Made by a program: the position numbers and the translations under genes. The notes under the pieces were generated by a model. The model was not told the origin of the DNA. It worked only from the letters and a program-made list of their open reading frames with translations, and searched no databases. Positions 7,401 through 48,877 of a stretch of DNA of 50,698 nt are shown here, in pieces. The DNA is taken from positions 1-50,698 of the forward strand of contig NZ_JABFVK010000003.1 in NCBI RefSeq assembly GCF_013362815.1. Direction: 5' to 3'. How positions within the stretch are numbered: the first letter of the stretch is position 1; each line of letters begins with the position of its first letter. Source of the stretch: Hamadaea sp. Its GTDB lineage: Bacteria > Actinomycetota > Actinomycetes > Mycobacteriales > Micromonosporaceae.

Positions 7401-10400
7401 GGTGAAACTCGCCGCGAACACCATCGGGCAGACTGCGGTGTCGCAGGACGCGTCGGTGAACTCCGGGTTCAACCTCATGTACATGAAGGGCTCGAACCGC
7501 TGGTCGTTCACCCGGAACCTGACCGACATCACGAACTCCGGCTCGGCGATGGCGTTGTCCACCGCCGCGCCCACGTTGAACACGTGGACGCATCTGGTAG
7601 GCGTCTTCAACTCGGGCAACGGCCAGATGACGTTGTACGCCAACGGAACCGCGCAAGGAACGGCGACCGACCCGACGCCCATCGCGGCGAACGGACCGTT
7701 GGTCATCGGCCGGGAGCGCTACAACGGAGCGAACGACCTGCCGTTCAACGGATCCGTCGCCAACGTGCAGCTGTACCAGCGCGCTTTGACGCCGAGCGAC
7801 GTGTCCACCCTGTACTCCAACGGTCAGTCGGGTCAGCCGCTCGGCAGCATCCGTAACACGACGACCTACGCGTATGACCAGCGCGGCTTGAAGCTCTCGG
7901 AGACCGATCCGCTCGGCAACACCGAGTACTACGAGTACGACGAGTCCGACAACCTCGTCGCCACGACGAGCGCAGCCGTCATGGCCGAGACCAACGGTGG
8001 TACGCCGGTCAGCTCGCGGCCGGTCACCACCACCGGATTCGACACTTTCGGCGACGAGGTCGAACTGCGGGACCCGGACGGCAACGTCACCGTCATCACC
8101 CGGGACGCGTCCGGCCGGCCGACCTCGACGAAGCTGCCGTCTTACACACCGCCCGGTGGTACGCCCATCACCGCGACGGTGTCGAAGACGTTCGACGGGT
8201 CCGGGAACGTCACTTCCACGACGGACGCGCTCGGGAAGGTCACCGGATACTCGTACGACCAGTTCGGGCGGTTGTCGAAGGCGGCCGCTCCCAACGGCGG
8301 AGTGACGACGTACGCGTACGACCTGAACGACGAGCTGCTGCGGACGGTGAATCCGCTGGGTGCGTACGCCGAGTCCACCTATGACTATCTCGGCCGCAAG
8401 ATCACCGACTCGTCGTTCGAGCGGTCCACGTCCAGCACCTTCACCACGTCGTACGCGTACAGCAGTGCCGGGTTCCTGCAGAAGGTGACGCAGCCGTCCG
8501 GGTCGTACCTGTCGTACACGAGTAATGCAGCCGGTGATGTGATCACGCAGACCGACGCGGCGGGCAACCTCACGAAGTTCGCCTATGACTACCTCGGTCG
8601 GCAGGTGGCGGTGACCGCCCCGGACGGGTCGAAGCGTACGGCGGTCTACGACGAGCCGGGCAACAACGTCATGACCAAGGCGTACGCCACGAACGGCGCG
8701 TTCATCTCGAAGATCTCGGCGGCGTACGACGGCAACGGAAACCGTGTCTCAGCCACGGATGCTTTCGGGCGTACGACGACGTTTGCGTATGACGCGACGG
8801 GGATGGTGACCGGGGAGACGCAGCCGATCTCGGCCACGGCGTCGATCACGACCTCGTTCGGGTATGACGTGGAGGGCCACCGGACTCGGTACACCGACGG
8901 GCGGGGCAACAAGCACCTGTCGACGTACAACTCGTGGGGGTTGCTGGAGTCGCAGATCGAGCCGGCGACGTCGGCGAACCCGAACGACCGGACGTGGACG
9001 ATCTCCTACGATGCGGCGGGGCGGGCGGTGAAGCAGACCCAGCCCGGTGGGGTGGTGGTCGCCAACACCTACGACACCGTCGGCAACCTCACGGCCCAGA
9101 CCGGGTCGGGGGCGGAGGTCGCCTCGGCCGACCGGACGTTCGGCTACGACCTGGCCGGGCAGTTGACGTCGATGAAGGCCGGGTCGGGCACGGACACGTT
9201 CGCCTACAACGACCGTGGTCTGCTCACGGCGACCACCGGTCCGTCGGGTGTCTCGTCGTTCGGTTACACGTCGGATGGTTTGGTCTCGTCGCGGACGGAT
9301 GCGTCGGGGACCAGCACGTACTCGTATGACACGGTGGATCGGTTGTCCGGGGTGACCGACGCTGCGACTGGTCAGAGCGTGTCGTACACCTATGACGGGT
9401 TGTCGCGGGTGACCAAGCAGACCTACGGCAGCGGTGACTCGCGGAACTTCGGGTATGACAGTGCCAGCCGGTTGGCGTCGGACACGTTGAAGACCTCCGC
9501 CGGGGCAACGGTCGCCTCGATCGTCTACGGGTATGACCTGGACGGGCGGGAGACGTCGAAGACCACGACCGGATTCGCCGGGTCGGCGGCGCACACCTAC
9601 AGCTATGACTGGGCCGGTCGGCTGACGTCGTGGAACAACGGCGCCACGACCACCACGTACGCGTATGACGCGTCGGGCAACCGCACGCAGCTCGGCGCGA
9701 AGGCGATGGTCTACGACGAACGCGACCAGCTCGTCGGGGACGGGTCGACGACCTACACCTACACCGCCCGGGGCACGTTGAAGTCGACGGTCACCGGGTC
9801 GACCACCCAAACCCTGGCCAGTGACGCCTACGGGCAGCAGACCGCGATCGGCGGGCAGGCGTACACCTACGACAGTCTCGGCCGGGTGCTGACCGCCGGG
9901 ACCACCAGCCTGTCCTATTCGGGGTTGGCCAACGATGTGGCCGGCGACGGGACGGCCACCTACAGCCGGGACCCCGACGGTGACGTCCTCGGCGTCAAAC
10001 CCACCTCTGGCACCGGGGTGTTCGCCTGGGCCGATCTGCACACCGACCTGGTCGGGCAGTTCACCGCGACCGGGGCGGCGCTGGCCGGATCGTCGACGTA
10101 CGACCCGTTCGGGACGGTCACCGCGACCGCGGGCAAGGTCGGCAACCTGGGTTATCAGTCGGAGTGGACCGACAGTGTCGCCAACCGGGTGAACATGCAC
10201 GCACGCTGGTACAACCCGGCGACCGGCCAGTTCGACAACCGCGACACCGTCGACAACGACCCGGTCCCGGACTCCATCGACGCCAACCACTACCAGTACG
10301 GCGACGGCAACCCGCTGCAGACCATCGACACGACCGGCCACTTCGGCTGGAACCCGATCAAGGCGATCAAGAAGGCCGTCTCCACGGTGGTGAACACCGT

Positions 10401-12051
10401 GTCCAGCTATGCCTCGTCGGCCTACAACTATGTGTCGTACTACGCGACGTCCACCTGGCACGCGGTGACGAGCGTCGCCCGGACCGTCGTGCATACGGTC
10501 AAGAAAGCCGCGCACACCGTACGCAAGGCGGTCCACCGGGTCACGCGGGCGATCAAACACACCGTCCACCGAGCGGTCCACTACGTCAAGAAGAAGTACA
10601 AGAAGGCCGTTCACGCGGTCAAGCGGACCGTCCACAGAGTCAAACATTCGGTGGCCAAGGCGATCAACCACGTCAAACACAAGGTCAAGACGACCTACCA
10701 CCGAATCAAGCAGGCCGGCCAGCGGGTCGTGCACAAGGTCACGAAGACCGTCAAACAGGTGGCCAACACGGTCAAGGACGCCTATCACGCAACCGCCACC
10801 TGGGTGAAGGAGCACAAGGACACCCTCATCCAGATCGGCGCGATCGTCGCCGGGGTGGCGGCCGGCCTGGCGTGCACCGCGGTAACCGCGGGAGCAGGTG
10901 CGGTGGCGTGTGCGGTGGGAGCCGCGGCGCTTATCAACCTCGGCAAGGACAGCGCCCAAGGCAACATCCACGGCTTCAAGGACGCGCTCGGCTCCCTCGG
11001 TCAGGGCGCCATTCAGGGCGGCGTCGGCGTCGTCACCGGCGGCGTCGGCGGGCTGGTCGCGGGCAAGGTGGCCGGAGCGATGGGCGGCTTCGCGGCGAAG
11101 GTCGGCGGGCGCATGATCGCCGGGTTCACCGACGGCGCGATCAGCGACACCGCATCCCAGCTGGTCACCACGGGCCGGGTGGATTGGACCGGGGTCGCGA
11201 TCTCGGGCGGCGTCGGCGCGATCACCGGCACCCGAGGCAGTCGCGACGGCCCGAGTTGCCACAGCTTCCAGCCCGCGACGCGGGTGGTGATGGCCGACGG
11301 GTCGACGAAGGCGATCAAGGACGTCAAGGTCGGCGACAAGGTGCTCGCCACCGACCCGGCAACGGGTAAGACCATGGCGAAGCCGGTGACGGTGCTGCAC
11401 AAGAACACCGACTCCGACCTGGCCGACGTGAGCGTACGCGACACGAAGACCGGCAAGGCGTCCACAGTGCACACGACGCAGCACCACCCGTTCTGGAGCG
11501 TCGCCGCGAAGGACTGGGTCGACGCGTCCGCCCTGAAACCAGGCGACCGTCTTCGGGACGTCGCCGGGCGTACCACCCAGATCGTCGTCGCCGTCAAGAC
11601 CTGGACCGGCCTCGCCGACATGCGCGACCTCACGGTCGCCGAAGTCCACACCTACTACGTCCTCGCCGGCGCCGCACCGGTCCTCGTCCACAACTGCGGC
11701 GGCGAGGTCACCGGTCACCCGGAGCGCTGTGACTGCGCCAATGGCGGAATCCCGAGGGTACGGAACGGGGCCCTCGCGGGCGGCGTACACCCGAGGACCG
11801 ACGTGCCGTTCGACGAGAACGGATTCCCCGACTTCTCGGCCTGGCGGCACCCGGATGTCCCCGATGTCCGCATCGAGCTCTCGGGTAATCGATCGACGGA
11901 CTTCGCCCGGGCGAACCGAGCGGCGGGTCTCGATGGCACGCCTGAGGGATATACGTGGCATCACCATCAAGAACCTGGGCTGATGCAGCTGATTGACTAT
12001 GATGTCCACCGTTTGACGGGCCACACCGGCGGCTTCTCGGGAGGGCGATGA
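1432..12051 (+). CDS. giant secreted Rhs/YD-repeat polymorphic toxin, LamG, Hint and WHH nuclease domains
   Basis: 3539 residues. A signal peptide is visible (hydrophobic 8-23, likely cleavage after AFA at 50-52). Next come a DNRLRE-like beta domain (about 342-535), an Ig/FN3-like region (540-650) and YD repeats from about 655. Three LamG-like modules interrupt the repeats (about 893-1128, 1186-1411, 1922-2133). The Rhs core motif (MHARWYNPATGQFDNRD) is near 2930. A Lys/His/Val-rich repeat (about 2979-3123) and a Gly/Ala hydrophobic stretch follow. A Hint autoprotease runs from Cys3276 to His3420-Asn3421-Cys3422. The last 115 residues carry TWHHH (W3509, H3510-3512) and DVHRLTGHTGG, the WHH group of HNH/Endo VII nucleases. 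GAGGAG precedes the ATG. By family precedent the Rhs shell encloses the toxin and Hint releases it. The SUKH gene follows directly. Confidence 0.92.
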   Translation: MDGRRPRFLVGFFLTVVMLLVTATPQPTTVFGPVGLKVSWLWSWLAAPSAFAGGKPIGPVQESGSAAGKGHYVGYADTKASGGAGRAPDKAPAERRDGKVQQLTTPDIKGFEPGRSVRSAKDSTAGSDLFANPDGSYTREVSQGAINYRDAKGAWQRIDPQVTSAGDRLGQRANQLGLQFARRGDDQRLVSAEFDGVGFGYSLLGAASVPAQTGAYSVTYAEVLPRTDLVLESRANGVKESIVLRERGTTSEWVFPLKLDGLTPSLDDSGGVILSDANGTVKGRIPPGLMHDSKFDQASGEFTSSNAVKYDLVQTSSGVALRVAADEKWLDDPARVYPVTVDPTADLTVDGDTYVYYGNDVDHSADDDIAIGTWDAGGHRGKGLLSSTDFAATFTGLRITSASLKLFLTWQGSCSAQPFTVHPITEPWSFSTVRYGSVSYTGPAFGAQIGTATPTNYAEACGNTAGNRAVGSWVSVPLTKATLDGWLSGTLANNGLGLDASQTATTDFKRFTSRNGPSGAVCDSHTCAPYLSVTYTPNVAPQIDSQYPPRDYQATSLTPELLARGHDPDVWPKAAVQYNYKVNDASGALVATSGWTSSSSWTVPAGKLQWSKTYYWWVVSYDGWATSPDPLNVAYYFPLSTPPPQPLVTSGLSQDAGGRGFEPSAGNYTTEAMDAQVATVGPALAVQRSYNSRDPRTGLAFGAGWSTVVDANVTERMASANGKTAVITYPTGTEVAFGRNADGSFNPPSGRYAVFTTVTGGYSLIDKDGTTYLFTRQVAGTPGMDGVYAITSIKDAAGRTLALAYNAAGQVETMTSASGRALHLTWSTPAGASKAHVATVFTDPAVAGDWNTASTWQYAYSGDQLTRVCPPTDYTHCTTYEYGTGSQYPTALLDAGPHSYWRLSEGAGAVKAASDVLDNGGTDAATYANVTLGQAGPLPGSAATAAGFNGTSSYVEVPGKLVSAASYQSVSMWFKTTTPDAVLFSYQKDPITGGTTAGNYTPGIYIGSSGKLRAAFWTNDVSAGIVSANPVTDGAWHHLVLAGAGNTQTLYLDGQVVGSRTGLITLIDAYSATHEYVGAGFLGGAWPDQSHQSGTSSQGFANYFTGSISDVALFDRTLTAADVAGLRGAASVAAHPLTKIVRPSGATAAQISYDPVSGVVTQVVDEHNGTWKISSSTVAGSSQVYAASVLSGGPADYLRMNETGVSEAVNEVNGGTGTYSTVTLGSPGPFADATAGRFDGTSSYVELPATDIPTTGPNSISMWFSMPSGSTKGGVLYAYQGMPLTDLTGSWWTPALYVGVDGKLRGGLWTGSATTRITSTASVADGKWHHVVLAAGTASQTLYLDGAVVGTLNAAVVTTGAAYAYVGAGRWEGNWPSHSTASIGYFPGSIGEFAFYKTQLTAAQVADQMAASKKASADAAGAALAKKIVVTDPMNATTTYLYDVDNGNRQVAEIWTDGTQERQTTYGYKDGYLRTMTDPNGNVTTSEHDARGNTISEQTCQDRSAGKCSTVYYTYYLNASSVVDPRNDQLTEVRDGRSASATDNTYLTKFEYDALGNKTKTTDALGRIAKTEYTDGTTIAAADVGFAPAGLPWRTTSPGGQVQTTTYFANGDVAQVTDPAGLVTKLAYDGQGRVVTKTEISDGYPNGVVTQVVYDKLGRITRQTDPATTNRVTGAVHTPVTTTVYNFDGQITQQTVSDATGGDAARTLQNSYDALGHIATATDASGKVSTFSYDLYGNMTREVDETGVETRYAYDANGHLLTSTLIGYTGDPNNPITARDLVTESRAYDPAGRLASITDAMGFVTAFTYTDNNLQVAVIKKNADGSQSYVAEQTEYDAAGNVIRELSNNNVTETKYTVDAVGRVTGETLDPNGVARRTSYTYNNDDLVTAKYFSDNTGYVTGVGSTFDTAGRVTSDWARTLGAGKPDGWWRLDASAGSAAVDSSGGDNTATLTSGVTWSGGAAAFNGTTGWATAAGPAVDTTKSFTVSAWVKLAANTIGQTAVSQDASVNSGFNLMYMKGSNRWSFTRNLTDITNSGSAMALSTAAPTLNTWTHLVGVFNSGNGQMTLYANGTAQGTATDPTPIAANGPLVIGRERYNGANDLPFNGSVANVQLYQRALTPSDVSTLYSNGQSGQPLGSIRNTTTYAYDQRGLKLSETDPLGNTEYYEYDESDNLVATTSAAVMAETNGGTPVSSRPVTTTGFDTFGDEVELRDPDGNVTVITRDASGRPTSTKLPSYTPPGGTPITATVSKTFDGSGNVTSTTDALGKVTGYSYDQFGRLSKAAAPNGGVTTYAYDLNDELLRTVNPLGAYAESTYDYLGRKITDSSFERSTSSTFTTSYAYSSAGFLQKVTQPSGSYLSYTSNAAGDVITQTDAAGNLTKFAYDYLGRQVAVTAPDGSKRTAVYDEPGNNVMTKAYATNGAFISKISAAYDGNGNRVSATDAFGRTTTFAYDATGMVTGETQPISATASITTSFGYDVEGHRTRYTDGRGNKHLSTYNSWGLLESQIEPATSANPNDRTWTISYDAAGRAVKQTQPGGVVVANTYDTVGNLTAQTGSGAEVASADRTFGYDLAGQLTSMKAGSGTDTFAYNDRGLLTATTGPSGVSSFGYTSDGLVSSRTDASGTSTYSYDTVDRLSGVTDAATGQSVSYTYDGLSRVTKQTYGSGDSRNFGYDSASRLASDTLKTSAGATVASIVYGYDLDGRETSKTTTGFAGSAAHTYSYDWAGRLTSWNNGATTTTYAYDASGNRTQLGAKAMVYDERDQLVGDGSTTYTYTARGTLKSTVTGSTTQTLASDAYGQQTAIGGQAYTYDSLGRVLTAGTTSLSYSGLANDVAGDGTATYSRDPDGDVLGVKPTSGTGVFAWADLHTDLVGQFTATGAALAGSSTYDPFGTVTATAGKVGNLGYQSEWTDSVANRVNMHARWYNPATGQFDNRDTVDNDPVPDSIDANHYQYGDGNPLQTIDTTGHFGWNPIKAIKKAVSTVVNTVSSYASSAYNYVSYYATSTWHAVTSVARTVVHTVKKAAHTVRKAVHRVTRAIKHTVHRAVHYVKKKYKKAVHAVKRTVHRVKHSVAKAINHVKHKVKTTYHRIKQAGQRVVHKVTKTVKQVANTVKDAYHATATWVKEHKDTLIQIGAIVAGVAAGLACTAVTAGAGAVACAVGAAALINLGKDSAQGNIHGFKDALGSLGQGAIQGGVGVVTGGVGGLVAGKVAGAMGGFAAKVGGRMIAGFTDGAISDTASQLVTTGRVDWTGVAISGGVGAITGTRGSRDGPSCHSFQPATRVVMADGSTKAIKDVKVGDKVLATDPATGKTMAKPVTVLHKNTDSDLADVSVRDTKTGKASTVHTTQHHPFWSVAAKDWVDASALKPGDRLRDVAGRTTQIVVAVKTWTGLADMRDLTVAEVHTYYVLAGAAPVLVHNCGGEVTGHPERCDCANGGIPRVRNGALAGGVHPRTDVPFDENGFPDFSAWRHPDVPDVRIELSGNRSTDFARANRAAGLDGTPEGYTWHHHQEPGLMQLIDYDVHRLTGHTGGFSGGR

Positions 12052-12052
12052 C

Positions 12053-12535
12053 GTGATGCTGTTGCAGGACAGCGCCTACTTCACCGGGCCGCCGCTCAGC
12101 GATGAGCTGATACGCCGGGCTGAGGAATCCCTCGGAGTCAAGCTGCCACGCAGCTACCTCGACGTGCTGCGAGAGCGCAACGGCGGCACACCGGTGAACC
12201 GTTGCTGTCCCACCCCATTCCCGACCTCGTGGGCACCCGATCATTTCGAGATCCATGCAGTGCTCGGAGTCGGCGGGAGCCGGGGAATCGATACGCCGGA
12301 CGGCAGCGCGTACCTGGTGGCGGAGTGGGGCTACCCGGAGGTCGGCGTCGTCGTCTGCGCGATGCCGTCCGGCGGTCATGACGCAGTCATGCTCGACTAC
12401 TCGGAATGTGGGCCCGTCGGCGAGCCGGCCGTGGCATACGTCGACGAGGATCGCGTACCTCGCCGGGTCGCCGCATCGTTTGCGGAGTTCCTCGGGATGT
12501 TGGTCGCCTGCGACGGAGAACCGCCCACCCGATGA
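12053..12535 (+). CDS. SUKH (SMI1/KNR4) family immunity protein
   Basis: About 160 residues, starting at GTG 12053 or ATG 12056, 1-4 nt after the toxin stop, with GGGAGGG upstream. The N-terminal pattern (ELIRRAEESLGVKLPRSYLDVL then RNGG) is the SUKH/SMI1-KNR4 signature. The C-terminal half ends in the usual helix (VAASFAEFLGML). SUKH proteins are the most common immunity proteins paired with HNH-type toxin tips. The position immediately behind the WHH toxin gene makes it the likely cytoplasmic inhibitor that protects the producer. The pairing is inferred from gene order and family knowledge. Confidence 0.88.
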   Translation: MMLLQDSAYFTGPPLSDELIRRAEESLGVKLPRSYLDVLRERNGGTPVNRCCPTPFPTSWAPDHFEIHAVLGVGGSRGIDTPDGSAYLVAEWGYPEVGVVVCAMPSGGHDAVMLDYSECGPVGEPAVAYVDEDRVPRRVAASFAEFLGMLVACDGEPPTR

Positions 12536-32867: not shown

Positions 32868-33380
32868 GTGCGAATCATTCAGCGAGTCGCGACCGTCCTC
32901 GCCCTTGGCGGGCTGCTGGCCGCGGGAGCGGCCGGTTGTGGCGGCGACAGCGGCTCTGAGACGAAAGGCAGCGGTGGCGTGAACGTCAGCACCGATACCA
33001 AGAGCAAGCCCACGATCACCTTCAGCGGTGACGCCCAGAAGCCGTCCAGCCTGCAGGTCACCGACATCGTCGAGGGCACCGGCGACGCGGCCAAGGCCGG
33101 CGACTCGGTGGCGGTGCAGTACGTCGGGGTCTCCTGGTCGACGCAGAAGCAGTTCGACGCCTCCTGGGACCGGGGCGCGCAGCCGTTCAGCGTCGCCCCG
33201 CTGGGCCAGGCCCGCGTCATCGAGGGCTGGAACCAGGGCCTCGTCGGGGCCAAGGTCGGTGGCCGTCGGCTGATCGTCATCCCGCCGGAGCTCGGCTACG
33301 GCGCGCAGGGCGCGGGCGGAGTCATCGGCCCGAACGAGACGCTGGTCTTCGCGGTGGACGTCGTCTCCATCAACGCCTGA
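32868..33380 (+). CDS. FKBP-type peptidyl-prolyl isomerase lipoprotein
   Basis: 170 residues from GTG 32868. A lipoprotein signal peptide (VRIIQRVATVLALGGLLAAG) ends in AAGC with Cys24 as the lipidation site. A Gly/Ser/Thr-rich spacer leads to one FKBP domain. Family residues visible are VAVQYVGVSW, FDASWDRG, VIEGWNQGLVGAKVGGRRLIVIPPELGYG and the final TLVFAVDVVSI. It probably catalyses proline isomerisation of exported proteins at the outer face of the membrane. A clear terminator follows. Confidence 0.93.
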   Translation: MRIIQRVATVLALGGLLAAGAAGCGGDSGSETKGSGGVNVSTDTKSKPTITFSGDAQKPSSLQVTDIVEGTGDAAKAGDSVAVQYVGVSWSTQKQFDASWDRGAQPFSVAPLGQARVIEGWNQGLVGAKVGGRRLIVIPPELGYGAQGAGGVIGPNETLVFAVDVVSINA

Positions 33381-33512: not shown

Positions 33513-36500
33513 ATGACCGCACGGCATGCCCTTCTCATCGGCGTACCTCATTACGATGCGAGCAGCTTCAGCGACATCGCCGACGTCGTGGAGTCCGATG
33601 TTCTGCGGATCAGCGAGTCGTTAGGCCAATCGGGGTACCAGATCGGCAACTGCGGTTACGGCGATCCCAGTGGGCAGGAGGCGACCGGAAGCCGGATCAG
33701 AGCCGCGATCTCCAGGGCTTGCAGTGAGGTCCCCGAGGGTGGCGTCCTGCTGATCTACTTCTCCGGGCACGGACTCACAGTCGATGGTGAGAGCTATCTC
33801 GCTCCGTGCGACACCTACCTTGAGCCAAACGGCATACCCGACGTGGCCAGCCTGGTCGCGCTCCTGCCGCGCCGTCTGGAGAACTGTCGTGCCGGCATGA
33901 TCGTTCTCGCTGTGGACGCGTGCCGCGACCAGTCGGCGGGCGCACCTTCCTCCGAGGTTCCGGCCGGTGCCCTCCGGCTTCCCGGTGGTGGAAGTCTGGT
34001 TCTCGTCAATGCCTGCCGACCGGGACAGCGCAGTCTCTACTCGGATACCGGAAGCTACTTCACCCAGGCACTGGCGGAGGCGCTGGACCGCCGTAATCCC
34101 GCTCGTACCCTTCAGGCGGTCCTGGACGAAGCCACTCGGCAGATGTCGCGCAAGGCGCGACGTGTGGAAGCGGAGCCGCAGGAGATCGACGTCGTCTGGG
34201 TGCGAACGGCCGAGGCCAGCGACCCGGCCACCATGGAGATCTGTGCCGGCGACCTCATGACCGACTTGTGGCGGCGCGCGGTGGAGGACTCGCCGCTGTG
34301 GACCCGGGCCGTCGGGTCCGACGCCGATCGCATGGCGGCACGGTCGGCAGTCATGAGGCTGCTGACCGTGTGCAGCAATCGATGGACTGCGGCGCAAGCG
34401 GCCCTGGCGGCCCGGGCCGACCTGTCGGACCCGTGGACGGATACCGACTATCCCATTCGGTTCATAGCCCGGCTCGGGGATCTGCTGTCGGACTGTTCGT
34501 TGCCAGCGGGAGAGGTCGCGACCTTGCTCGCCGTCCCGTTCCTCCGGGAGATCCTCTTCGCGGGCGGAGTCCGGGAGGCGGCCGCGATCGCGCCGGCGGA
34601 CTTCCGCCGGACCTACGCCGACGGCGCCCGGTCGGACCTGGAGCTTACCCATGCGATCCATGAGCACGTCTGCCGCCGAGCCGAGGGTCTGGCGAAGCGA
34701 GGCGCACGGGGATCTCATGACGCGGTCGCGATGTGGCTGGTCCATCGCTGGCTTGCGAACAGGCGCACGCTCTGGCGCTCGGAATCGGCTATGCAGCTGT
34801 GTAAGCAGTTTTCGTCATCGATCATCCAGGTTACGGACGGCCTGCGAACCGAGGCCGAGGTAGCGCAAGACCTCCGCAGTCTGCTCGGCTTGGCCGGCGG
34901 CGATGTGGATCCGGAGCGACTCGGGCGGCTCCGCCCTCGCGCTTCCGGACTTGCAGCAGTCCTCGCGACGGCGAACGTTCTCGCCTTCGATCCCCGCTGC
35001 CTGCCGCCGGTGATCGTCGACCACCTAGGTATCTCCGCCGAACTCTCCGTGCCCGCCGTACGCACGGCGCTGGCTCGGGCACGCTGGCGGCGCGCCGACG
35101 ATGGCTCGATGGATCTGCACGCCGTTTGTGATCATCCGGCGCTCCACGACGCTTTCCAGCATCTCGTCGAGGCCGCCAACCTGCTGCGGAAGAACTTGAG
35201 CGATGTCGAGATGGACGCCTCGCTTGCGGCGGCGCTGCCCGCAAAGGTTACGGCGAGCGGCCTGCGCCCGGAAATCCAGGACGAACGGCCCGCGTACAAG
35301 ATCCCCCTGTCACGCTTTCGCCTGTCGGACGACAAGGTACGCGAGTTGCTCATGGGGCGGCAGGTCTATGGCGACTCGTCTCTGGCGATCCGTGAGCTCT
35401 ATCAGAACGCGTTGGATGCCTGCCGCTACCGGCGTACGCGGCGGGAGTACGTGGTGAGGACAAGTGGATGCCTCTCACCTTGGCAGGGCGCAATCAAGTT
35501 CGTGCAGGGGGTTGAGAACGGCCGCGCTTACATCGATTGCGAGGACAACGGTGTGGGCATGGACGAATACACGCTGGCGCATACCTTTGCCACGGCGGGC
35601 GAGCGCTTCGTGTATCGGCCGGAGTTCCGGCAGGAGCAAGCCGGGTGGCAGGAGCTCGACCCGCCGCTCCGCATGATCCCGAACAGCCAGTTCGGCGTCG
35701 GTGTCTTCAGCTACTTCATGCTGGCCGACGAGATCGAGATCCACACTCGGCCGGTCGGTAGGGACGACATCATCGCGGGCCAGGCGTTTTCGGTGCGCAT
35801 CGCCAGCAGCGGAAGCCTGTTCCAGGTGACTCCCTCTCGGGAGATTCCAGCGGGCGGGACGCGCGTGCGGCTCTACCTCACTCAAGACGAACCAACGTCG
35901 GTCTTGCGAGCGCTGCGCAGCCTGCTATGGGTGTCAGAGTTCGCGGTGACCGCCAGCGAGGTGGATGTCGCTGCGGAGACGTGGGAACCCGAGCAGCTGA
36001 GGTACTCGGGCGGCGGCAGCGAACCGTTGCGCGTGGGCGATGACCTGTGGTGGGTCGACGGCGGTGGTGGTCTTGCGGCGGATGGTTTGCGGACAGGCGA
36101 TTCGACTTACGGCTCGATTCTGAACCTCCGCGGGCAGAACCGGCCTCAGCTGACGATCGACCGCAACAAGATCCGTAGCTGGAACGCAGACTGGGGCCGC
36201 GACCAGATGGAGCGTTCGCTCCCGGACTTGATGGCGTGGCCCGGACTGACACTCCACTGGCTTTGGCAGGTGACGAATAGCAGTCCGGTCACGGCTCAGA
36301 TGATCTTTGAGGAGGCCTGCCGACGGCGGCTTGATCTCACCATCGGTGGGCCCTGGGGCCAAGGCTTGACGGCATCGATAATGGACGTCGGCTGCCTTCC
36401 TGTCGATGAACAGCTCTTTCAGGATTCGCAGTATTCGCTCGCCGATCGGTGGTGGATGATCGTCTGGCGTTCGGCAGTGTGGAACAGAAAGCTACCTGGA

Positions 36501-38360
36501 CTGATACCTGCCTATGCCGAGATCCCATCCGTCGCGCGGCTGGACGGCTATCCGGTGGTGGAGCCCCGCGATGCGCTGGCGCTGACCGATCTGGACTCAG
36601 CCGTCAACTATCTATCGCGGGTCGGGCGTCCTGAGGCGGACGACTTGGTTGACTCCTACTCGGGAAATCGCGCACTTCCCTATGAAGATCTCCAGCGCCT
36701 TCGCCGCTTCGCGATCGCGGGACTCGACCTCAGGTCCGCTCGGGACCTGCCGTCCGTGCGGATTCCGGCTGATCTTGACGACGCCGAATCCACCGAGATG
36801 AGGATGCTGTTGAGAGCGTTACCGGCGGCGATTCCTGTCGGCTCGTCGAGACGAGCGCACGTTGCGCCGCTCCTCGCAGCTTCGGCGAGAGGCAACTGGG
36901 CCGTTCGTGAGGTGCATCAGCGTCTTGGTCGGCTCCTGCCGGACGGCTGGCAGGTCGAGGGCTTGCCGGCGCGACGTGCTCCCGGTGTCCTAGATGAAGT
37001 CGCCTCCGCGCGGGACGTCCGGCTGTTGAGCGTTCGCCTGAACGGGCGTGCTCCCTGGGTGGGCCCTGAAGTCTCACCGGCGCACGTCGTTGCGGCCAGT
37101 GACGCGCTGGGCTGGTCGATCGAGGAGGTGAGGAACCGAATCCGATCCTGGGGTTCTGAGGCCATCCAGGTCGTCGGGGATGAGCTCTACCCGGCCGTGC
37201 CCACGGTGATCGAGCGTGAGGCGCTCCGCCTGATGCCATCGGTGGGGGCGAAGCTGTCGGCATTCCAGATCTTCGCCATCGCCTGCCGCTCTCAGTCCAC
37301 CACAGGCGAGGTAGTACAGGGATTGAGCAGGCTCCATGACGCCCGGCTGATAGACCTTGACGATGTGCGAACGCTTCCGGACCTTCTGCCCACGCAGGCG
37401 GAACGCGAATCATTGCAGAGCCGCTTCGTCATCTTCGACAGCGCTGTCTTCCGGGGCGTCCTCGTGGATTCATGGCATGTGGTTGTGTCGATCTTCTATG
37501 CGCTGCTCGATCGCCCGCTGTTTGGACCCACGGGCAGGTTCCTGGAGTGCCGTAACCTGATCGCATTCGCTTGCCGTGGCCGACGGATCGGCGCACCCGA
37601 GCTGATTCTTGCCAGTTGGTATCTCGATCTGAGCATACGAGACACTGCGGCGGTTATCGCCCGACTCGATCTCGGGCTGGAGTTCGACGACGGTTTCGCA
37701 CATTGCGAAGAGTCTGTGCTGGACGCACTGCCGAATCCGACGCCTGAATTCATGCCTAAGGCATTACTCGGATCGTCGGTTGTGACGTGGCGGACTTCTC
37801 AACCGAAGTGGAACGTCACGGCGTACAGCTTGGTCTCCACGGCCTTGGAACAGCGTCGGCCGCTTGAAGAAGTTCTCTCGGCTGTTGAGCCCTACCGGGT
37901 ACTTGGCGCACCATTGCCGGTTCTCGACCCGGAACGGCACTCCAGCAGCGTGGGTGACGTCGATGCATGTGACGCGGCGATACTCGCCGATCCCGGCCCT
38001 ATGGGCATCGGAACCAACCCGGTCAGTACGATTACGCCACTCTCACTAGTTCGAGCGGCCGGTCGATTCGGCTGGACCGTCAAGCAGGCGCACCAGCGCT
38101 TCGAACGCCTCGCACCGCTTGGTCTGACGCTCGAATACGATCCATCCGCTTGTTCTGACGAAATCGTTCGCTGGCAGGATCTCTTGATCTTGACGGAGTT
38201 TCACGACGGGTTCGAGCCGGCGATCAGCGGGACACCTACGGAGGAGCACATCGCGGGAGCGATGGAGCACACGGATGAGTCTCCGGAATGGATTGTTGAC
38301 CGGCTACGCCACTATGCGGAGTTGTTCAGCCTGACAGTCGACGGGGAGAGGGCCGGATGA
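33513..38360 (+). CDS. caspase / HD-like / HSP90-type ATPase / wHTH-repeat conflict-system protein
   Basis: 1615 residues. Residues 1-235 are a caspase-like peptidase (metacaspase p20): LLIYFSGHG with H86 and LAVDACRD with C137 form the catalytic dyad. About 245-560 is all-helical and resembles the inactive HD-like (iHD) domains found in such proteins (tentative). About 600-800 is a GHKL/HSP90-type ATPase: N-box ELYQNALDACRYR (E628, N632, D635), G1 DNGVGM (D678) and G2 SQFGVGVFSYFM (G728). LNLRGQNRPQLTIDRNKIRSW fits the HSP90 middle domain. The last 700 residues hold repeated wHTH-like units. The family belongs to NTP-dependent conflict systems in which caspases act as effectors; defence against phage is inference. 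A weak GAGGTGA precedes the ATG, and the stop overlaps the next gene. Confidence 0.85.
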   Translation: MTARHALLIGVPHYDASSFSDIADVVESDVLRISESLGQSGYQIGNCGYGDPSGQEATGSRIRAAISRACSEVPEGGVLLIYFSGHGLTVDGESYLAPCDTYLEPNGIPDVASLVALLPRRLENCRAGMIVLAVDACRDQSAGAPSSEVPAGALRLPGGGSLVLVNACRPGQRSLYSDTGSYFTQALAEALDRRNPARTLQAVLDEATRQMSRKARRVEAEPQEIDVVWVRTAEASDPATMEICAGDLMTDLWRRAVEDSPLWTRAVGSDADRMAARSAVMRLLTVCSNRWTAAQAALAARADLSDPWTDTDYPIRFIARLGDLLSDCSLPAGEVATLLAVPFLREILFAGGVREAAAIAPADFRRTYADGARSDLELTHAIHEHVCRRAEGLAKRGARGSHDAVAMWLVHRWLANRRTLWRSESAMQLCKQFSSSIIQVTDGLRTEAEVAQDLRSLLGLAGGDVDPERLGRLRPRASGLAAVLATANVLAFDPRCLPPVIVDHLGISAELSVPAVRTALARARWRRADDGSMDLHAVCDHPALHDAFQHLVEAANLLRKNLSDVEMDASLAAALPAKVTASGLRPEIQDERPAYKIPLSRFRLSDDKVRELLMGRQVYGDSSLAIRELYQNALDACRYRRTRREYVVRTSGCLSPWQGAIKFVQGVENGRAYIDCEDNGVGMDEYTLAHTFATAGERFVYRPEFRQEQAGWQELDPPLRMIPNSQFGVGVFSYFMLADEIEIHTRPVGRDDIIAGQAFSVRIASSGSLFQVTPSREIPAGGTRVRLYLTQDEPTSVLRALRSLLWVSEFAVTASEVDVAAETWEPEQLRYSGGGSEPLRVGDDLWWVDGGGGLAADGLRTGDSTYGSILNLRGQNRPQLTIDRNKIRSWNADWGRDQMERSLPDLMAWPGLTLHWLWQVTNSSPVTAQMIFEEACRRRLDLTIGGPWGQGLTASIMDVGCLPVDEQLFQDSQYSLADRWWMIVWRSAVWNRKLPGLIPAYAEIPSVARLDGYPVVEPRDALALTDLDSAVNYLSRVGRPEADDLVDSYSGNRALPYEDLQRLRRFAIAGLDLRSARDLPSVRIPADLDDAESTEMRMLLRALPAAIPVGSSRRAHVAPLLAASARGNWAVREVHQRLGRLLPDGWQVEGLPARRAPGVLDEVASARDVRLLSVRLNGRAPWVGPEVSPAHVVAASDALGWSIEEVRNRIRSWGSEAIQVVGDELYPAVPTVIEREALRLMPSVGAKLSAFQIFAIACRSQSTTGEVVQGLSRLHDARLIDLDDVRTLPDLLPTQAERESLQSRFVIFDSAVFRGVLVDSWHVVVSIFYALLDRPLFGPTGRFLECRNLIAFACRGRRIGAPELILASWYLDLSIRDTAAVIARLDLGLEFDDGFAHCEESVLDALPNPTPEFMPKALLGSSVVTWRTSQPKWNVTAYSLVSTALEQRRPLEEVLSAVEPYRVLGAPLPVLDPERHSSSVGDVDACDAAILADPGPMGIGTNPVSTITPLSLVRAAGRFGWTVKQAHQRFERLAPLGLTLEYDPSACSDEIVRWQDLLILTEFHDGFEPAISGTPTEEHIAGAMEHTDESPEWIVDRLRHYAELFSLTVDGERAG

Positions 38361-38689
38361 CGCAGCGGAAAGGGCCCATCGAGAACCACCGTGCGGTGCC
38401 GTGGGCGCCGACGGAGTTCGGGCTGTTGGAGACCTTCAGCGTGATGACCGACCCGGAGGGGACGGGCTACGTGGTCGAAGGCTCATGCCCGACCTGCGGC
38501 GCTCATCTCAAGATTGATTGGCATTTCGGCAATCCCGGCTACAAGGGTGTGACCGTTTCGCCCGACGTCGTACGCCCGAAAGCTGGTCCGCGGACGATCA
38601 ACTGCGACTGCGGCCATGACCATGCAGGCCGCCCGGGCAGTGCATACGACGACGGGTGCGGTGCTTCGTGGAAGGTGATGCTCCCGTGA
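38357..38689 (+). CDS. small zinc-ribbon protein of the caspase-HSP90 operon
   Basis: 110 residues, overlapping the caspase-HSP90 gene by ATGA. A CPTCG knuckle near residue 45 and a CDCGHDH motif followed by DDGCGASW near the C-terminus look like a zinc ribbon with extra ligands. The rest (IENHRAVPWAPTEFGLLETF) resembles no enzyme I recognise. Coupling to the caspase-HSP90 gene suggests a partner, adaptor or sensor (inference). Confidence 0.72.
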   Translation: MTQRKGPIENHRAVPWAPTEFGLLETFSVMTDPEGTGYVVEGSCPTCGAHLKIDWHFGNPGYKGVTVSPDVVRPKAGPRTINCDCGHDHAGRPGSAYDDGCGASWKVMLP

Positions 38690-39294
38690 ACTCCGACGAC
38701 CGGCGATGGGCTGAACGCGCCCGGGAGTTGGGGTTCAACCAGCTGGAGGTCGCCCGCCGCCAGGCGGAGGCGTGGCGTAACGGGCTGACGGGAGTCACTG
38801 CCCTGCTCGGCACGGTGTTCATCGTCAAGGGTCGCGACGATGTCACGGAGCTCGCCTGGTGGCTTCAGTGGTGGATCGCCTTCCTCCTGGTCGTCGCGTT
38901 CGCGTCGTTGATCCGCGCGATCTTCCTCGCACTCGGCGCGGCGGCGGGGGAGACGAACGAGCGGATCCTGCTCACCGGGGAAGACCTGCGCGAATGGACT
39001 GAAGGCGAGGTGGACCGGGTTGGCCGGGACATCGGCGCGGCCAAGCGGTGGACCATCGCCGGGATGGCGCTCATCGCGATGGCGCTGCTCACCGCCTGGC
39101 TCTCGCCGACCGCCGAGACGACTCGGCCGATGATGAGGGTGGATTTCGAGGGCGGAGTGGCGTGCGGTCCGGTCACCTTCGAACGGGCCGGCTACATCGG
39201 TGTGACCAGCAAGTACGGGTCGCCGGTCGACACGAAGCTCTGGGTTCCGGTCGACAAGGTGAGCCTCCTGAGGGAGGTCCCGAGCTGTCCTTAA
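38686..39294 (+). CDS. three-TM membrane protein of the caspase-HSP90 operon
   Basis: 202 residues from GTG 38686, overlapping the zinc-ribbon gene by GTGA; a longer frame starting at 38656 is rejected. An amphipathic, charged N-terminal helix (about 5-31) precedes TM1 (33-49) and TM2 (58-84). A cytoplasmic acidic loop, TM3 (122-141) and a C-terminal beta-rich tail of about 60 residues follow. The helix plus TM hairpin recalls SLATT-like membrane modules of conflict systems, but I cannot assign the family. It may be the membrane effector or anchor of the operon (inference). Confidence 0.72.
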   Translation: MNSDDRRWAERARELGFNQLEVARRQAEAWRNGLTGVTALLGTVFIVKGRDDVTELAWWLQWWIAFLLVVAFASLIRAIFLALGAAAGETNERILLTGEDLREWTEGEVDRVGRDIGAAKRWTIAGMALIAMALLTAWLSPTAETTRPMMRVDFEGGVACGPVTFERAGYIGVTSKYGSPVDTKLWVPVDKVSLLREVPSCP

Positions 39295-45931: not shown

Positions 45932-46312
45932 TCAACGTGCAGGCCGGAGGAGGCGGGCGAGGCGCGACCGCCGCCGAGGAGGCGTACGCCCGTCGTAAGC
46001 CCAGTGAGCGTCGCGAGCGCGCAGCTCGGCAGCGGCCGACGGGTCCAGTGTGGACAAGGTTCGGGCGAAGTCCCAGCCGTCCCGCAAGGACCCCTGAGGA
46101 GGTCGCCCGACTGCCCAGGTGCGGAAGGTGGCGTACCAGGAGGGGCCGAGCGAGGCGGCCAACGCAGGCCACACCCGGGCGACCTCCCCGGCGCGTTTGC
46201 GGAGGAGCTGTTCGCGTACGGCATCGACTCGCGCGGGGTCGAAGCCCGGTGGCGGAGATCCGTCGGCCACGAGCGCTGCGACCAGGGCGGCTTGCCGTTC
46301 GGCGAGGCTCAC
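45932..46312 (-). CDS. DUF2063-like partner protein of the MNIO enzyme
   Basis: 126 residues from GTG 46312, overlapping the MNIO stop (GTGA). The helical N-terminus LAERQAALVAALVADGSPPP then GFDPARVDAVREQLLRKRAG and VWPALAASLGPSWYATFRTWA resembles the N-terminal half of DUF2063 proteins, the usual partners of DUF692/MNIO enzymes that present the substrate peptide. It is shorter than typical DUF2063 proteins and ends in a basic tail (RRRSRLARLLRPAR). The assignment is by pattern and gene order. Confidence 0.65.
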   Translation of the reverse strand: MSLAERQAALVAALVADGSPPPGFDPARVDAVREQLLRKRAGEVARVWPALAASLGPSWYATFRTWAVGRPPQGSLRDGWDFARTLSTLDPSAAAELRARDAHWAYDGRTPPRRRSRLARLLRPAR

Positions 46313-47127
46313 ACCGTCACCCGGTCCAGGCCCGCGGCGTCGGCGATCGCGTCCAGCTCCGCCGACAGCTCGGCCGCCGGGGGATATCGGCCGTCGCGTT
46401 CCAGCATGACCGCGGGCAGCCGCCCGGCGAGATGCGCCACCAGCTGCAGCACATCATCGGGTACGCGATCAGTGTGCGTGTCCTGGTAGAGCCCGTCGAC
46501 TTCGGCGCCCCCGGCGACGTGGCAGTACGCCACCCGCTCCCACGGCAGCGCGTCGAGCAGGGCGTACGCGTCTTCGCCCCGGTTGACGGCGTTGGCGTAC
46601 ACGTTGGCGACGTCGAGCAGCAGCAGCGCGCCGGTCCGGTCGAGGATCTCGGTGAGGAACTGGGGTTCGGTCAGCTCGTCGTCCGGCCAGTCCACGAGGG
46701 TGGCGATCGGTTCCAGCGCCAACGGAACGTCCAGTGTGGACTGCACGACCGCGGCGTTGGCGGCGATCGCGTCCACTGCTTCCCGCGACCGCGGAACGGG
46801 CAGCAGGTGACCGGCCTCGTGCCCGCCCGCCCGGACGAACGCGATGTGCTCGCTGACGAGTGGAGCCTCGGTGAGGCGGGCGACGGCCGCGAAGTGCTCG
46901 ACTCGATGCGGGTCCACCGGTTCGGCCCCGCCGAGCGAGAGTTTGACGCCGTGCGGGACGACCGGCACGCCGCGTCCGCGCAGCCGGGCCAGCCCGTCGG
47001 GCAGCGGGCCGTGATGTGGGACCGATTCGGCGATGACCTCGGCGAACGCCAGTCCCGGCAGGGCGGTGACGTAGCCGGAGATCTCCGGCCGCCAGCCGAT
47101 GCCGACTCCGGCGAGCGGCGCGGTCAC
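46309..47127 (-). CDS. DUF692/MNIO family iron-dependent oxidative enzyme
   Basis: 272 residues from GTG 47127, overlapping the upstream gene (GTGA). TIM-barrel DUF692 family, the multinuclear non-heme iron enzymes (MbnB, TglH, ChrH) that modify Cys residues of peptides. Ligand-type residues are visible in family positions: VPHGV (H59), SEHIAF (E93, H94), LALEP (E139), LLLDVANVYANA (D172, N175), CHVAGG (H203), DTHTD (D216, H218) and LERDGRYPP (E243, D245). The adjacent gene encodes a Cys-rich tail and the downstream gene a DUF2063-like partner, the standard set for ribosomal peptide modification. Confidence 0.9.
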   Translation of the reverse strand: MTAPLAGVGIGWRPEISGYVTALPGLAFAEVIAESVPHHGPLPDGLARLRGRGVPVVPHGVKLSLGGAEPVDPHRVEHFAAVARLTEAPLVSEHIAFVRAGGHEAGHLLPVPRSREAVDAIAANAAVVQSTLDVPLALEPIATLVDWPDDELTEPQFLTEILDRTGALLLLDVANVYANAVNRGEDAYALLDALPWERVAYCHVAGGAEVDGLYQDTHTDRVPDDVLQLVAHLAGRLPAVMLERDGRYPPAAELSAELDAIADAAGLDRVTV

Positions 47128-47915
47128 GAACCGCCTCCGCAGCCGCCGCCCCCGCCGCCCCCGCCGCAGGAGCTTCCGCCACCGCAGCTCGAACCACTAC
47201 CACCGCAGCTCGATCCGCTGCCACCGCAGCTGGACGATCCGCAGTTCGACCCGCCGTCCGAGGAACTCCCGCTGTCCACCGGGCTACCGCACGACGTCCC
47301 CGAGCCGCCACACGAGTACGCGCTCGACGTCGCGTTGTTCGTGGCGGCGGTCCGCAGCGGGAAGAAGCCGAGCAGATCCGGGCTGATGCCGGCGAACGCG
47401 GCGGTCCCGTACAGCCCGACGCCGAGTCCGGCCGCCGCGGGCCCGTACGTCATCCAGGCCGGCTGCTGCGCAGGGGCGAGGTAGGCGTACTCCTGGCGAT
47501 GCTGGCGCAGCAGCGCGTTGCCGGTCGGCGTACGCCGGTCAGATGCGCTCAGCACCCCTTTGAGCTGTAAAGACTGCCGGATGGCGAGGAGGGCGCTGTC
47601 GACGGCGGGACTTGCGACGATGGCCCGCCCGGTACGCCCGAGCGCCAGTTCGGCCGCGACCGCCCGTTGCAGGGGAGTGGCGCCGGGGATCTCGTGCATC
47701 GGCCGGAGGTGGACCTGACCGGCGACCCACAACGAGGCCAATGCCGACTGGACCGCCCGGGGACGTCCGCCCGCCAAGTAGGCCACCTCTTCCGGACTCG
47801 GCCGGGGTCCGGTGTAGACGGCGTTGCTCTGCCGCACTGCCCGCACGACCACGATGATGATGATCAGGCCGCCGATCGCGAACGGAGCGAAGGCGAGGAG
47901 CGGGAAATCGCGCAT
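47124..47915 (-). CDS. TIGR04222-type membrane protein with Cys/Gly/Ser tail, candidate MNIO substrate
   Basis: 263 residues from ATG 47915. TM1 is about 8-25 (FAPFAIGGLIIIIVVVRAV). A soluble domain of about 120 residues contains PSPEEVAYLAGGRPRAVQSA and the HLRP/ALGRTGRA segments of the TIGR04222 family. A second hydrophobic segment (about 156-176) is followed by a low-complexity tail (193-263) with eight Cys (202, 209, 225, 230, 237, 244, 250, 259) in repeated SSCGG units. Such tails next to a DUF692 gene suggest Cys modification, for instance to oxazolone-thioamide or other heterocycles (inference). First gene of the MNIO operon, 32 nt after the LysR stop. Confidence 0.8.
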   Translation of the reverse strand: MRDFPLLAFAPFAIGGLIIIIVVVRAVRQSNAVYTGPRPSPEEVAYLAGGRPRAVQSALASLWVAGQVHLRPMHEIPGATPLQRAVAAELALGRTGRAIVASPAVDSALLAIRQSLQLKGVLSASDRRTPTGNALLRQHRQEYAYLAPAQQPAWMTYGPAAAGLGVGLYGTAAFAGISPDLLGFFPLRTAATNNATSSAYSCGGSGTSCGSPVDSGSSSDGGSNCGSSSCGGSGSSCGGSGSSCGGGSSCGGGGGGGGCGGGS

Positions 47916-47947
47916 GCCGACAGTGTGCGTACTGGGCGCAACAGCGC

Positions 47948-48877
47948 TCAGAGGGGGTCGACTCCGGGGGGCAGGGTGCTCCACGCCGACGCCTCGGTCA
48001 GGTACGCCAGCAGCGTGTCCCGTAGCGCCCGGGCGGCGTGCGTAGGTGTCACGTCACGGCGGTGCGCCAACGCGACGGTACGCTGCACGCCCGGCTTGGC
48101 CAGGGTGGTGATCCGGAGCCGGTCGCGCCCGGCCACCGCCATCGACGGGACCAGTGCGACGCCGAGGCCCGCCTCGACGAAGCCGAGGACGGCGTCCAGT
48201 TCGCCGCCCTCGACCGCGAACGACGGGGTGAACCCGGCCCGCTCGCACGCCGCCACGGTGGCGTCGCGCAGGTCGTAGCCGGTACGGAACATGACGAGCG
48301 GCTGGTCGCGCAGTTCGGTGATCCGCAGCGGCGGCTTCTCCGTCGGCGGCGGCATGGTCAGCGACGACACCACCACCAGACTCTCGCGCAGGATCGGTTC
48401 GGTTCGCAGCGAGGGATCGGTGCCGGCGTCAGGCAGCACGATGATCGCCATGTCGAGCGCGCCCTGCACCAGGTGACGCACGAGATCCTGGGAGCCACTC
48501 TCCTCCACCTGCAGGCGTACGCGCGGATAGGCGTCGGCGTAGCGGCGCAGAATGGGGGCGACCAGACTGACACAGAGGCTCGGCGTCGCACCCAGGCGCA
48601 GCCGTCCCCGCCGCAGTCCGACGAGCTCCTGGACCTCGACGCGGGCGGTGTCGGCGTCGGCGATGATCCGGCGGGCCAACGGCAGCAGGGCCTCCCCGGC
48701 CGGGGTCAGCGCGATGGCGCCCCGCGTACGCGTGAACAGCTCCGCGCCGAGGTCGGTTTCCAGGGCGTGAATCTGCTTACTCAGTGAGGGTTGGGTCACA
48801 CCGACCTGGTCGGCCGCCTGGGTGAAATGCCGGGTTTCGGCGACCGCGACGAAGTACCGGAGCTGTTGGAGCTGCAC
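47948..48877 (-). CDS. LysR-family transcriptional regulator
   Basis: 309 residues from GTG 48877. An N-terminal winged HTH (LQQLRYFVAVAETRHFTQAA then VGVTQPSLSKQIHALE) is followed by the two-lobed effector domain (LRLGATPSLCVSLVAPILRRY, MAIIVLP, GLGVALVPSMAV). It is divergent from sdhC. Its promoter and a LysR-type palindrome overlap its own start, so autoregulation is likely. The effector ligand is unknown; whether it also controls sdh or the downstream MNIO operon cannot be read from sequence. Confidence 0.92.
   Translation of the reverse strand: MQLQQLRYFVAVAETRHFTQAADQVGVTQPSLSKQIHALETDLGAELFTRTRGAIALTPAGEALLPLARRIIADADTARVEVQELVGLRRGRLRLGATPSLCVSLVAPILRRYADAYPRVRLQVEESGSQDLVRHLVQGALDMAIIVLPDAGTDPSLRTEPILRESLVVVSSLTMPPPTEKPPLRITELRDQPLVMFRTGYDLRDATVAACERAGFTPSFAVEGGELDAVLGFVEAGLGVALVPSMAVAGRDRLRITTLAKPGVQRTVALAHRRDVTPTHAARALRDTLLAYLTEASAWSTLPPGVDPL

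Follow-up and report, generated by a model that had tools for sequence, protein, structure and literature searches.

A caspase–HSP90 chain coupled to a zinc-ribbon and membrane protein pair in Hamadaea: a candidate protease-based conflict system with a recurrent membrane module

How does a bacterial suicide protease get switched on? Protease-based immunity and suicide systems of bacteria are known mostly as gene lists, and the question that remains is the switching-on itself. It is raised directly by a three-gene operon at 33513–39294 of a 50,698-nucleotide stretch of Hamadaea sp. DNA (contig NZ_JABFVK010000003.1, assembly GCF_013362815.1; the whole stretch is hereafter the window), which belongs to a 7.45 Mb genome in 124 contigs. 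The operon lies on the forward strand and encodes (i) a giant chain of 1615 amino acids (33513–38360) that runs from a caspase through an iHD-CE domain and an HSP90 N-terminal plus middle (N + M) unit to an array of winged helix-turn-helix (wHTH) units, as read from the open reading frame (ORF), profiles and AlphaFold2/Foldseek; (ii) a 110-residue zinc-ribbon protein (ZnR; 38357–38689); and (iii) a 202-residue transmembrane (TM) protein with a GTG start (38686–39294). The three ORFs lie where a previous sequence-only reading had placed them, and the translational coupling that it proposed is visible as an ATGA at 38357 (chain/ZnR junction) and a GTGA at 38686 (ZnR/TM junction). We find that the three genes form what appears, from sequence comparison, as a conserved unit, and that the ZnR–TM pair is not private to the caspase–HSP90 chain: it recurs near several kinds of peptidase.

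A scan of named species genomes returned 357 relatives of the chain, of which the best 80 were kept, representing 79 distinct loci. Together with the window and two loci from other genomes, they give 80 distinct loci with a recovered chain: L030 yielded none, as the locus ends with its contig, and L006 and L047 count once because, by length and match, they come from a single contig. Iterated profiles detect ZnR at 62 and the TM protein at 61 of these 80 loci; the ZnR and TM genes overlap by 4 nt in 58/61 cases, and the chain and ZnR genes by 4, 8, 11 or 17 nt in 51/61. The small genes are thus far from being always missing from homologues, and a survey of gene neighbourhoods, as the sequence-only reading had suggested, recovers the same three-gene set repeatedly. 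The pair also holds together in two Actinoplanes loci (L058 and L060), where it is divergent and upstream of the chain, and it stands upstream of the chain on the same strand at L045. Two loci (L048 and L055) contain two chain genes each.

The chain begins with a caspase (Peptidase_C14, PF00656; residues 4–222, 33522–34178; Pfam E 5.4e-16, 59.4 bits against a cut-off of 21.4), which was also matched in the genome search (E 3.6e-17). It is followed by an iHD-CE domain (PF24401; residues 253–586, 34269–35270; Pfam E 1.6e-57, 195.8 bits against a cut-off of 27). Here the sequence-only reading had seen a helical HD-like region: the domain does belong to the iHD-CE family, but no HD dyad is common to the 80 aligned chains at the place inspected, which also limits the likeness to the HD-CE family (PF24391) that matches this region with an E-value of 7.8e-17. 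The next segment is an HSP90 N-terminal ATPase domain (residues 613–793, 35349–35891) recognized by two NCBIfam HSP90/HtpG models (E 3.3e-12 and 5.8e-12, under their full-length cut-offs) and by HSP90 chains in the PDB (best E 4.1e-7), and then an approximate HSP90 middle domain (residues ~811–993, 35943–36491). An AlphaFold2 model of residues 591–1615, built with 52 sequences, has a mean pLDDT of 86.4 and a pTM of 0.87. Because Foldseek matches this 1025-residue model to TRAP1 and other HSP90 structures (best E 2e-10; among the 50 matches listed, mostly over ~350–500 columns, with a mainly helical part following), the ATPase of the chain looks like a genuine HSP90 N + M unit in the model, succeeded by a mainly helical array. 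Three stretches of the wHTH-HSP90_Na-assoc family (PF24410; E 7.6e-21, 74.6 bits against a cut-off of 23; best stretch at residues 1164–1214, 37002–37154) account for the repeated wHTH-like units proposed earlier, and such stretches number three to nine per chain in the five chains scanned with Pfam (L125, described below, included).

We then aligned 80 chains of at least 1200 residues from 78 loci. The caspase residues H86 (33768–33770), D135 and C137 (33921–33923), the N-terminal ATPase residues E628, N632, D635, D678, G680, G682, G728, G730 and T783, and R884 (36162–36164) of the middle domain are invariant (80/80), with the qualification that two search patterns sit in the HSP90 part, so that E628, N632 and the G728–G730 stretch were partly selected for, and that keeping the best 80 of 357 relatives favours caspase-bearing chains. 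H86, C137 and R884 lie outside the search patterns. By its motif, R884 is placed like the catalytic arginine of HSP90 middle domains, to which we take it to be equivalent. Judged by these residues, both the caspase and the ATPase look intact, in agreement with the complete His–Cys dyad and the nucleotide motifs noticed in the sequence-only reading. Four further chains are caspase-free, three by Pfam (L126, L127 and L130) and one by profile (L128). As an observation of its own, the caspase-free iHD-CE chains of L127 (4494–8435) and L128 (4676–8611) start with a short VVQAG-containing motif, which presumably recalls bacterial amyloid signalling motifs.

The two small proteins are the new element of the operon: the domains of the chain are already catalogued in Pfam, and the ZnR–TM pair is without a described family. 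In ZnR, C44 and C47 are conserved in 60/61 and C83, C85, H89 and C101 in 61/61 sequences; the zinc-ribbon assignment, which we retain, rests on these Cys and His residues since Pfam Zn_ribbon_3 scores 14.1, short of its cut-off of 27. No ZnR family exceeds its cut-off in Pfam, NCBIfam or PADLOC for the window protein, or in Pfam for four relatives. The single PDB match of ZnR, RNA polymerase I subunit RPA12 (E 0.074), was not used. For the TM protein, an AlphaFold2 model (mean pLDDT 89) and the hydropathy of the family agree on three long helices (residues 3–48, 58–87 and 98–139), as proposed from the sequence, and the model adds five strands within residues 149–198. C160 and C201 are each conserved in 60/61 sequences. 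Basic residues concentrate in the N-tail (mean 6.3 across the family) and in the loop between TM2 and TM3 (6.0; residues 88–117, 38947–39036) rather than in the shorter TM1–TM2 loop (1.9). This distribution fits an N-in, C-out topology, by which the TM2–TM3 loop would be cytosolic and C160 and C201 would lie outside the cell, where they could pair. The window TM protein has no family at a usable score in Pfam, NCBIfam or PADLOC, and Pfam applied to 54 TM members matches two families only, each through a single member (E 5e-5 and 3e-4). No PDB look-alike reaches E ≤0.001, and no solved relative was found; the best hit, Hfq (Sm-like, E 0.05), suggests at most a small beta-barrel. A literature search whose reach left out most subscription papers returned no paper on the pair and no relevant one for the Pfam names iHD-CE, HD-CE and Pepco. 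Kaur et al. (2020; PMC7159879) use the term 'zinc ribbon' two times, of GTPases and of kinases, and do not describe the pair under that name.

The TM protein is more widespread than the chain. Its profile matches 43/150 genomes of the window's own family, against 18/150 for iHD-CE, and 29/150 genomes in the genus of G352. We read the neighbourhoods of all TM places in the own family (four chain loci, the window, two congeners and 31 + 14 places) and of 20 out of 35 TM rows in the genus of G352, plus one Streptomyces chain locus (L129). The 15 rows outside the count comprise 14 near an iHD-CE match on the same contig (two of them L129 and L006) and one (G491) with its iHD-CE match on another contig; three fragmentary TM matches (L247, L248 and L249) and two places without a match on reading (L250 and L255) were dropped beforehand. 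This gives 68 TM places, 57 counted first and the others added at a laxer threshold. The TM2–TM3 loop is present at 53 of the 68, and among these ZnR is found at 47 and a peptidase within 5 kb at 43. Six of the 53 carry the HSP90 chain, five of them having been fetched through the chain. Among the 47 chain-free, loop-bearing places, 37 have a peptidase within 5 kb, namely 29 CHAT, seven trypsin-like and one other caspase.

The partners named by Pfam are CHAT proteins, some with TPR or AAA/nSTAND1-like parts, and EAD1-trypsin proteins (five loci); at L161 the partner combines a caspase, which at 18.9 bits narrowly misses the Pfam cut-off, with STAND- and WD40-like parts. Most partners in Streptomyces (all but those at L227 and L233) rest on our own profiles (nine CHAT and five trypsin proteins), and the trypsin-like neighbour at L180, ~5 kb away and one of 41 peptidase neighbours at the first 57 places, is likewise profile-based only. 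CHAT lies within 5 kb at 15/27 TM places against 0.21 expected from CHAT density in 22 genomes, and in 11 genomes a TM gene stands no more than 8 kb from 10/12 EAD1 matches; as the choice of both genome sets followed a first look at some of the neighbours, these figures serve for orientation rather than as a rigorous test. The CHAT (TPR) and EAD1-trypsin loci resemble the operon in having the pair nearby and differ from it in having other peptidase domains and no HSP90. Because the same pair adjoins peptidases of other kinds, a membrane-damaging role of the TM protein is less favoured. Two further observations concern the surroundings of the pair. At L223 (~7500–8220), where no peptidase was found, it lies upstream of gltBD-like genes, and the complete cassette of L077 likewise adjoins gltBD-like genes. 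At L173, a sacsin-like HATPase protein (9780–12347, reverse strand) is encoded ~1.1 kb from a TM gene that has the loop and at which no ZnR or peptidase was found.

Does the TM protein itself record its association with the peptidases? The TM2–TM3 loop is absent or much shortened in 15 TM homologues, and none of these has a ZnR (0/15) or a detected peptidase (0/15). For the 57 places counted first, nine of them loop-less, Fisher tests give 2e-7 (ZnR) and 1e-6 (peptidase); the six further loop-less cases are L243–L246, L252 and L253. Seven loop-less, ZnR- and peptidase-free places (L181–L183, L185, L186, L190 and L191) come from one genus, several of them sharing neighbour genes. Two congeners of the window genome (G644 and G663) bear on the operon's own site, which is flanked by a same-strand FKBP isomerase gene on the 5' side of the chain (32868–33380) and bounded on the other side by a helicase gene on the opposite strand. 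In both congeners the helicase is 96–97 percent identical and the TM gene is kept, and the chain and ZnR are missing; the TM gene is shorter by 9 residues in the N-tail and by 18–19 in the loop, with an overall dN/dS of 0.4–0.5. Since the TM gene remains at the site, recent insertion of the operon into an empty site is not favoured; partial loss, or a separate orphan state of the TM gene, is likelier. The pattern points to the N-tail and the loop as a surface that may need ZnR and the peptidase in order to be kept, with few independent losses behind it. These results bear on the view that the HSP90 part is a chaperone for the caspase or its clients and that the small genes are passengers kept by operon inertia. 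Intact HSP90 N and M domains would suit it, but the pair's presence beside unrelated peptidases, its conserved overlap and the loop correlation are not the behaviour of passengers, and we consider this view very improbable.

The partners of the chain also change within its own family. A gene matching a Pepco profile lies directly upstream of the chain at 14 of the 80 chain loci; it never occurs together with ZnR, and four loci have neither. This profile was built from four of its 14 loci, and Pfam identifies all three of the upstream genes submitted to it as Pepco (E 1.6e-17 to 5.4e-17). The Pepco-caspase-iHD-CE-HSP90 loci, whose families stand in Pfam as PF24393, PF24401 and PF24410, share with the window the chain family, the domain order (caspase, iHD-CE, HSP90) and the invariant catalytic residues; they differ in that the Pepco gene replaces ZnR–TM, and the window is outside the 14. 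A tree of the 80 chains contains a single Pepco/ZnR–TM change, to which midpoint rooting gives no direction. ZnR–TM rows of named origin are all actinobacterial, and among the Pepco rows are cyanobacteria, one planctomycete and a Methanosarcinales metagenome-assembled genome (MAG).

A third partner is EACC1, which Kaur et al. (PMC7159879) suggested to be a membrane sensor activating its caspase. As described there, the two-gene EACC1 system, prevalent in actinobacteria, resembles ours in combining a small membrane-inserted protein with a caspase that has a large C-terminal module; 'Hsp90' occurs 0 times in that paper. Locus L125 (1826–7170, reverse strand) provides a direct link, as it bears a caspase-iHD-CE-HSP90-wHTH chain of the same family with an EACC1 gene (E 2.5e-23) directly upstream. 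Unlike the window's 3' pair of ZnR and a three-helix TM protein with a five-strand domain, EACC1 is the 5' gene and has one TM helix. The window caspase scores 58.7 bits with the EACC1-type caspase model NF047832, below its cut-off of 140, and Pfam scans of four window proteins give no EACC1 match, the 5' neighbour being the FKBP isomerase. With iHD-CE in the chain and EACC1 and EAD1 among its relatives, the building blocks of conflict systems expected by the sequence-only reading are present. Pepco, EACC1 and ZnR–TM may be alternative regulators of one chain family. Given the EACC1-like place of ZnR–TM and its CHAT and trypsin partners, docking or gating is favoured over a dedicated pore, and the pair probably docks or gates the peptidase.

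An alternative is that the TM protein is the effector, as in caspase–gasdermin logic: the peptidase would clip its N-tail or loop after a conserved arginine, the fragment would permeabilize the membrane, and ZnR would act as chaperone or inhibitor. Near-invariant basic residues do occur in the predicted cytosolic segments (R7 in 56/61, R24 in 59/61 and R31 in 59/61 sequences). Two of the neighbouring peptidase kinds, trypsins and caspases with an Asp at Cys-2, would both favour a basic P1 residue, and finding one TM protein near peptidases of several kinds agrees with a common substrate. However, replacement of ZnR–TM by Pepco in 14 loci means that the chain family can do without the TM protein, the two congeners have kept a loop-less, peptidase-free TM gene with a dN/dS of about 0.4–0.5, and a well-modelled five-strand domain with conserved Cys is unexpected in a simple pore former. 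We regard an effector role as rather unlikely.

We favour, with moderate confidence, a stand-alone protease-based conflict system (suicide or abortive infection) of the EACC1/Pepco kind, with ZnR–TM as its membrane module. The chain would be a latent caspase held by the HSP90 clamp, with the iHD-CE domain as scaffold and the C-terminal wHTH array as the input end. A trigger would bind the array or the clamp, and ATP binding and hydrolysis would shift the clamp and free the caspase; this ATP-driven step is proposed because the N-domain motifs are intact and the middle domain has its arginine. In metacaspases, the Asp that precedes the catalytic Cys by two positions forms part of the S1 pocket. 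As this Asp is invariant in our alignment, we predict that the freed caspase is specific for Arg or Lys at P1; orthocaspases are reported to cut after positive residues (PMC6426788). ZnR–TM might dock the peptidase at the inner membrane face through the N-tail and the TM2–TM3 loop and set its activation threshold, and the five-strand domain, predicted to be outside the cell, could sense the state of the envelope. The pair may serve CHAT, EAD1-trypsin and caspase-STAND peptidases as well. Sensing of infection by the wHTH repeats, gating by ATP and killing, the sequence of events put forward in the sequence-only reading, would all be compatible with this scheme, and defence against phages is plausible by analogy with the family. 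With a caspase fused before an HSP90 clamp, ATP-gated protease release becomes directly testable, and the recurrence of ZnR–TM together with the loop missing in orphans offers a concrete docking surface and a handle for finding further systems.

A bolder extension, possible though doubtful, is that ZnR–TM is a general transmembrane receptor or gate of actinobacterial suicide peptidases, exchanged among caspase-HSP90, caspase-STAND-WD40, CHAT-TPR and EAD1-trypsin systems, which would sense the envelope via the five-strand domain and release the protease via the TM2–TM3 loop. If so, the ZnR–TM gate would be a bacterial counterpart of receptor-coupled caspase activation. A partly comparable arrangement is VcSduA, a GHKL-ATPase-gated Shedu nuclease (PMC12137116), in which a GHKL ATPase is likewise proposed to control an effector domain within one chain. 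It differs in having a nuclease effector, and the passages of that paper available do not mention a caspase, a wHTH array or a membrane module. MoxR and vWA genes do not appear among the nine window genes scanned with NCBIfam, a scan that was not aimed at them.

Is the operon then a defence system at all? The distribution of iHD-CE is patchy: it is matched in 4/396 genomes of the phylum sample (three over the cut-off, including the window's own genome), in 33/199 genomes of one genus and in 18/150 of the own family, and in none of the three congeners of the family sample, the third of which (G622) also has no TM match. Given this patchiness and the absence from congeners, the pattern is not that of a housekeeping gene. 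The chain family, moreover, extends to cyanobacteria, Planctomycetota, Acidobacteriota and a Methanosarcinales MAG.

Several observations weigh against the conflict-system interpretation or its docking model. Many Streptomyces copies stand at recurrent sites amid apparent core genes, with two neighbourhoods of 11 loci each, one marked by arginine-synthesis genes and the other by a SURF1-like gene (both named by sequence reading), so that the sequence-only reading's question of a housekeeping distribution has a mixed answer. A PADLOC comparison of flanks gave no clear enrichment of defence genes: at E ≤1e-12, 47 families were matched among 110 near proteins (sampled out of 148 representatives) and three among 110 far ones (out of 234), but several models match one protein, so that family numbers are not protein numbers. 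Near-flank families among the matches listed include MADS (mad3 and mad6), MzaA, SoFic, PDC-S48, MkoA and PD-T4-6 kinase models; each near-flank family among the 25 matches listed has one member, and for HamB and PDC-M23B the E-values are those obtained with the window's helicase. In the phage set the chain was not matched, and its plasmid matches are partial (none over 80 percent of the query). The TM protein, searched for on plasmids and viral contigs, has no match on the former and no confirmed relative on the latter. Among solved structures, sequence comparison brings the caspase closest to a plant metacaspase, at an E-value of only 0.0076. As regards docking, the loop-less cases cluster (11/15 in one genus, two in the window's own and one each in two more), the two congeners retain only the TM gene at the operon site, and at the EAD1-trypsin loci, as at several CHAT loci, the partner is encoded on the other strand, so that being adjacent does not mean sharing an operon. 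No peptidase was found at ten of the 47 chain-free, loop-bearing places (L162, L163, L171, L173, L222, L223, L239, L240, L251 and L254, with contig ends cutting L163 and L240), and L251 keeps the loop although both ZnR and a peptidase are absent from it.

Some of these points would suit a role outside defence, in which the operon is a protease switch that filamentous actinobacteria use in development or under envelope stress, the membrane module reading the envelope and the caspase serving programmed hyphal lysis or differentiation. Besides the recurrent chromosomal sites in Streptomyces and the PADLOC result, the predicted extracytoplasmic domain agrees with such a switch, as does the fact that every ZnR–TM locus found is actinobacterial, the TM profile having been run on two actinobacterial groups and viral contigs only. 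Yet patchiness (33/199 and 18/150) and absence from congeners would be unusual in a core gene of development, members of the chain family occur well outside the actinobacteria, and EACC1 and EAD1 belong to the same network. We judge a developmental switch somewhat improbable and retain the conflict system as the preferred interpretation. The overall view of the sequence-only reading stands as regards the conserved set, the invariant residues and the conflict-type building blocks, and is half answered as regards housekeeping and a link to defence.

Lastly, a few features were seen beside these subjects. The partial plasmid matches of the chain include plasmid NC_022001.1 (H2, Streptomyces collinus), which at 43305–44066 matches chain residues 576–828 in the HSP90 part with 43 percent identity. 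Elsewhere in the window, a 3539-residue RHS/YD-repeat-like protein (1432–12535) has, by eye, a Hint-like segment and a WHHH-type C-terminus and is followed by a 160-residue ORF, and the two resemble a polymorphic toxin with its immunity gene. At 46309–47984, a homologue of MNIO-type RiPP maturases (NCBIfam E 3.8e-53, below the cut-off) adjoins a TIGR04222 membrane protein.

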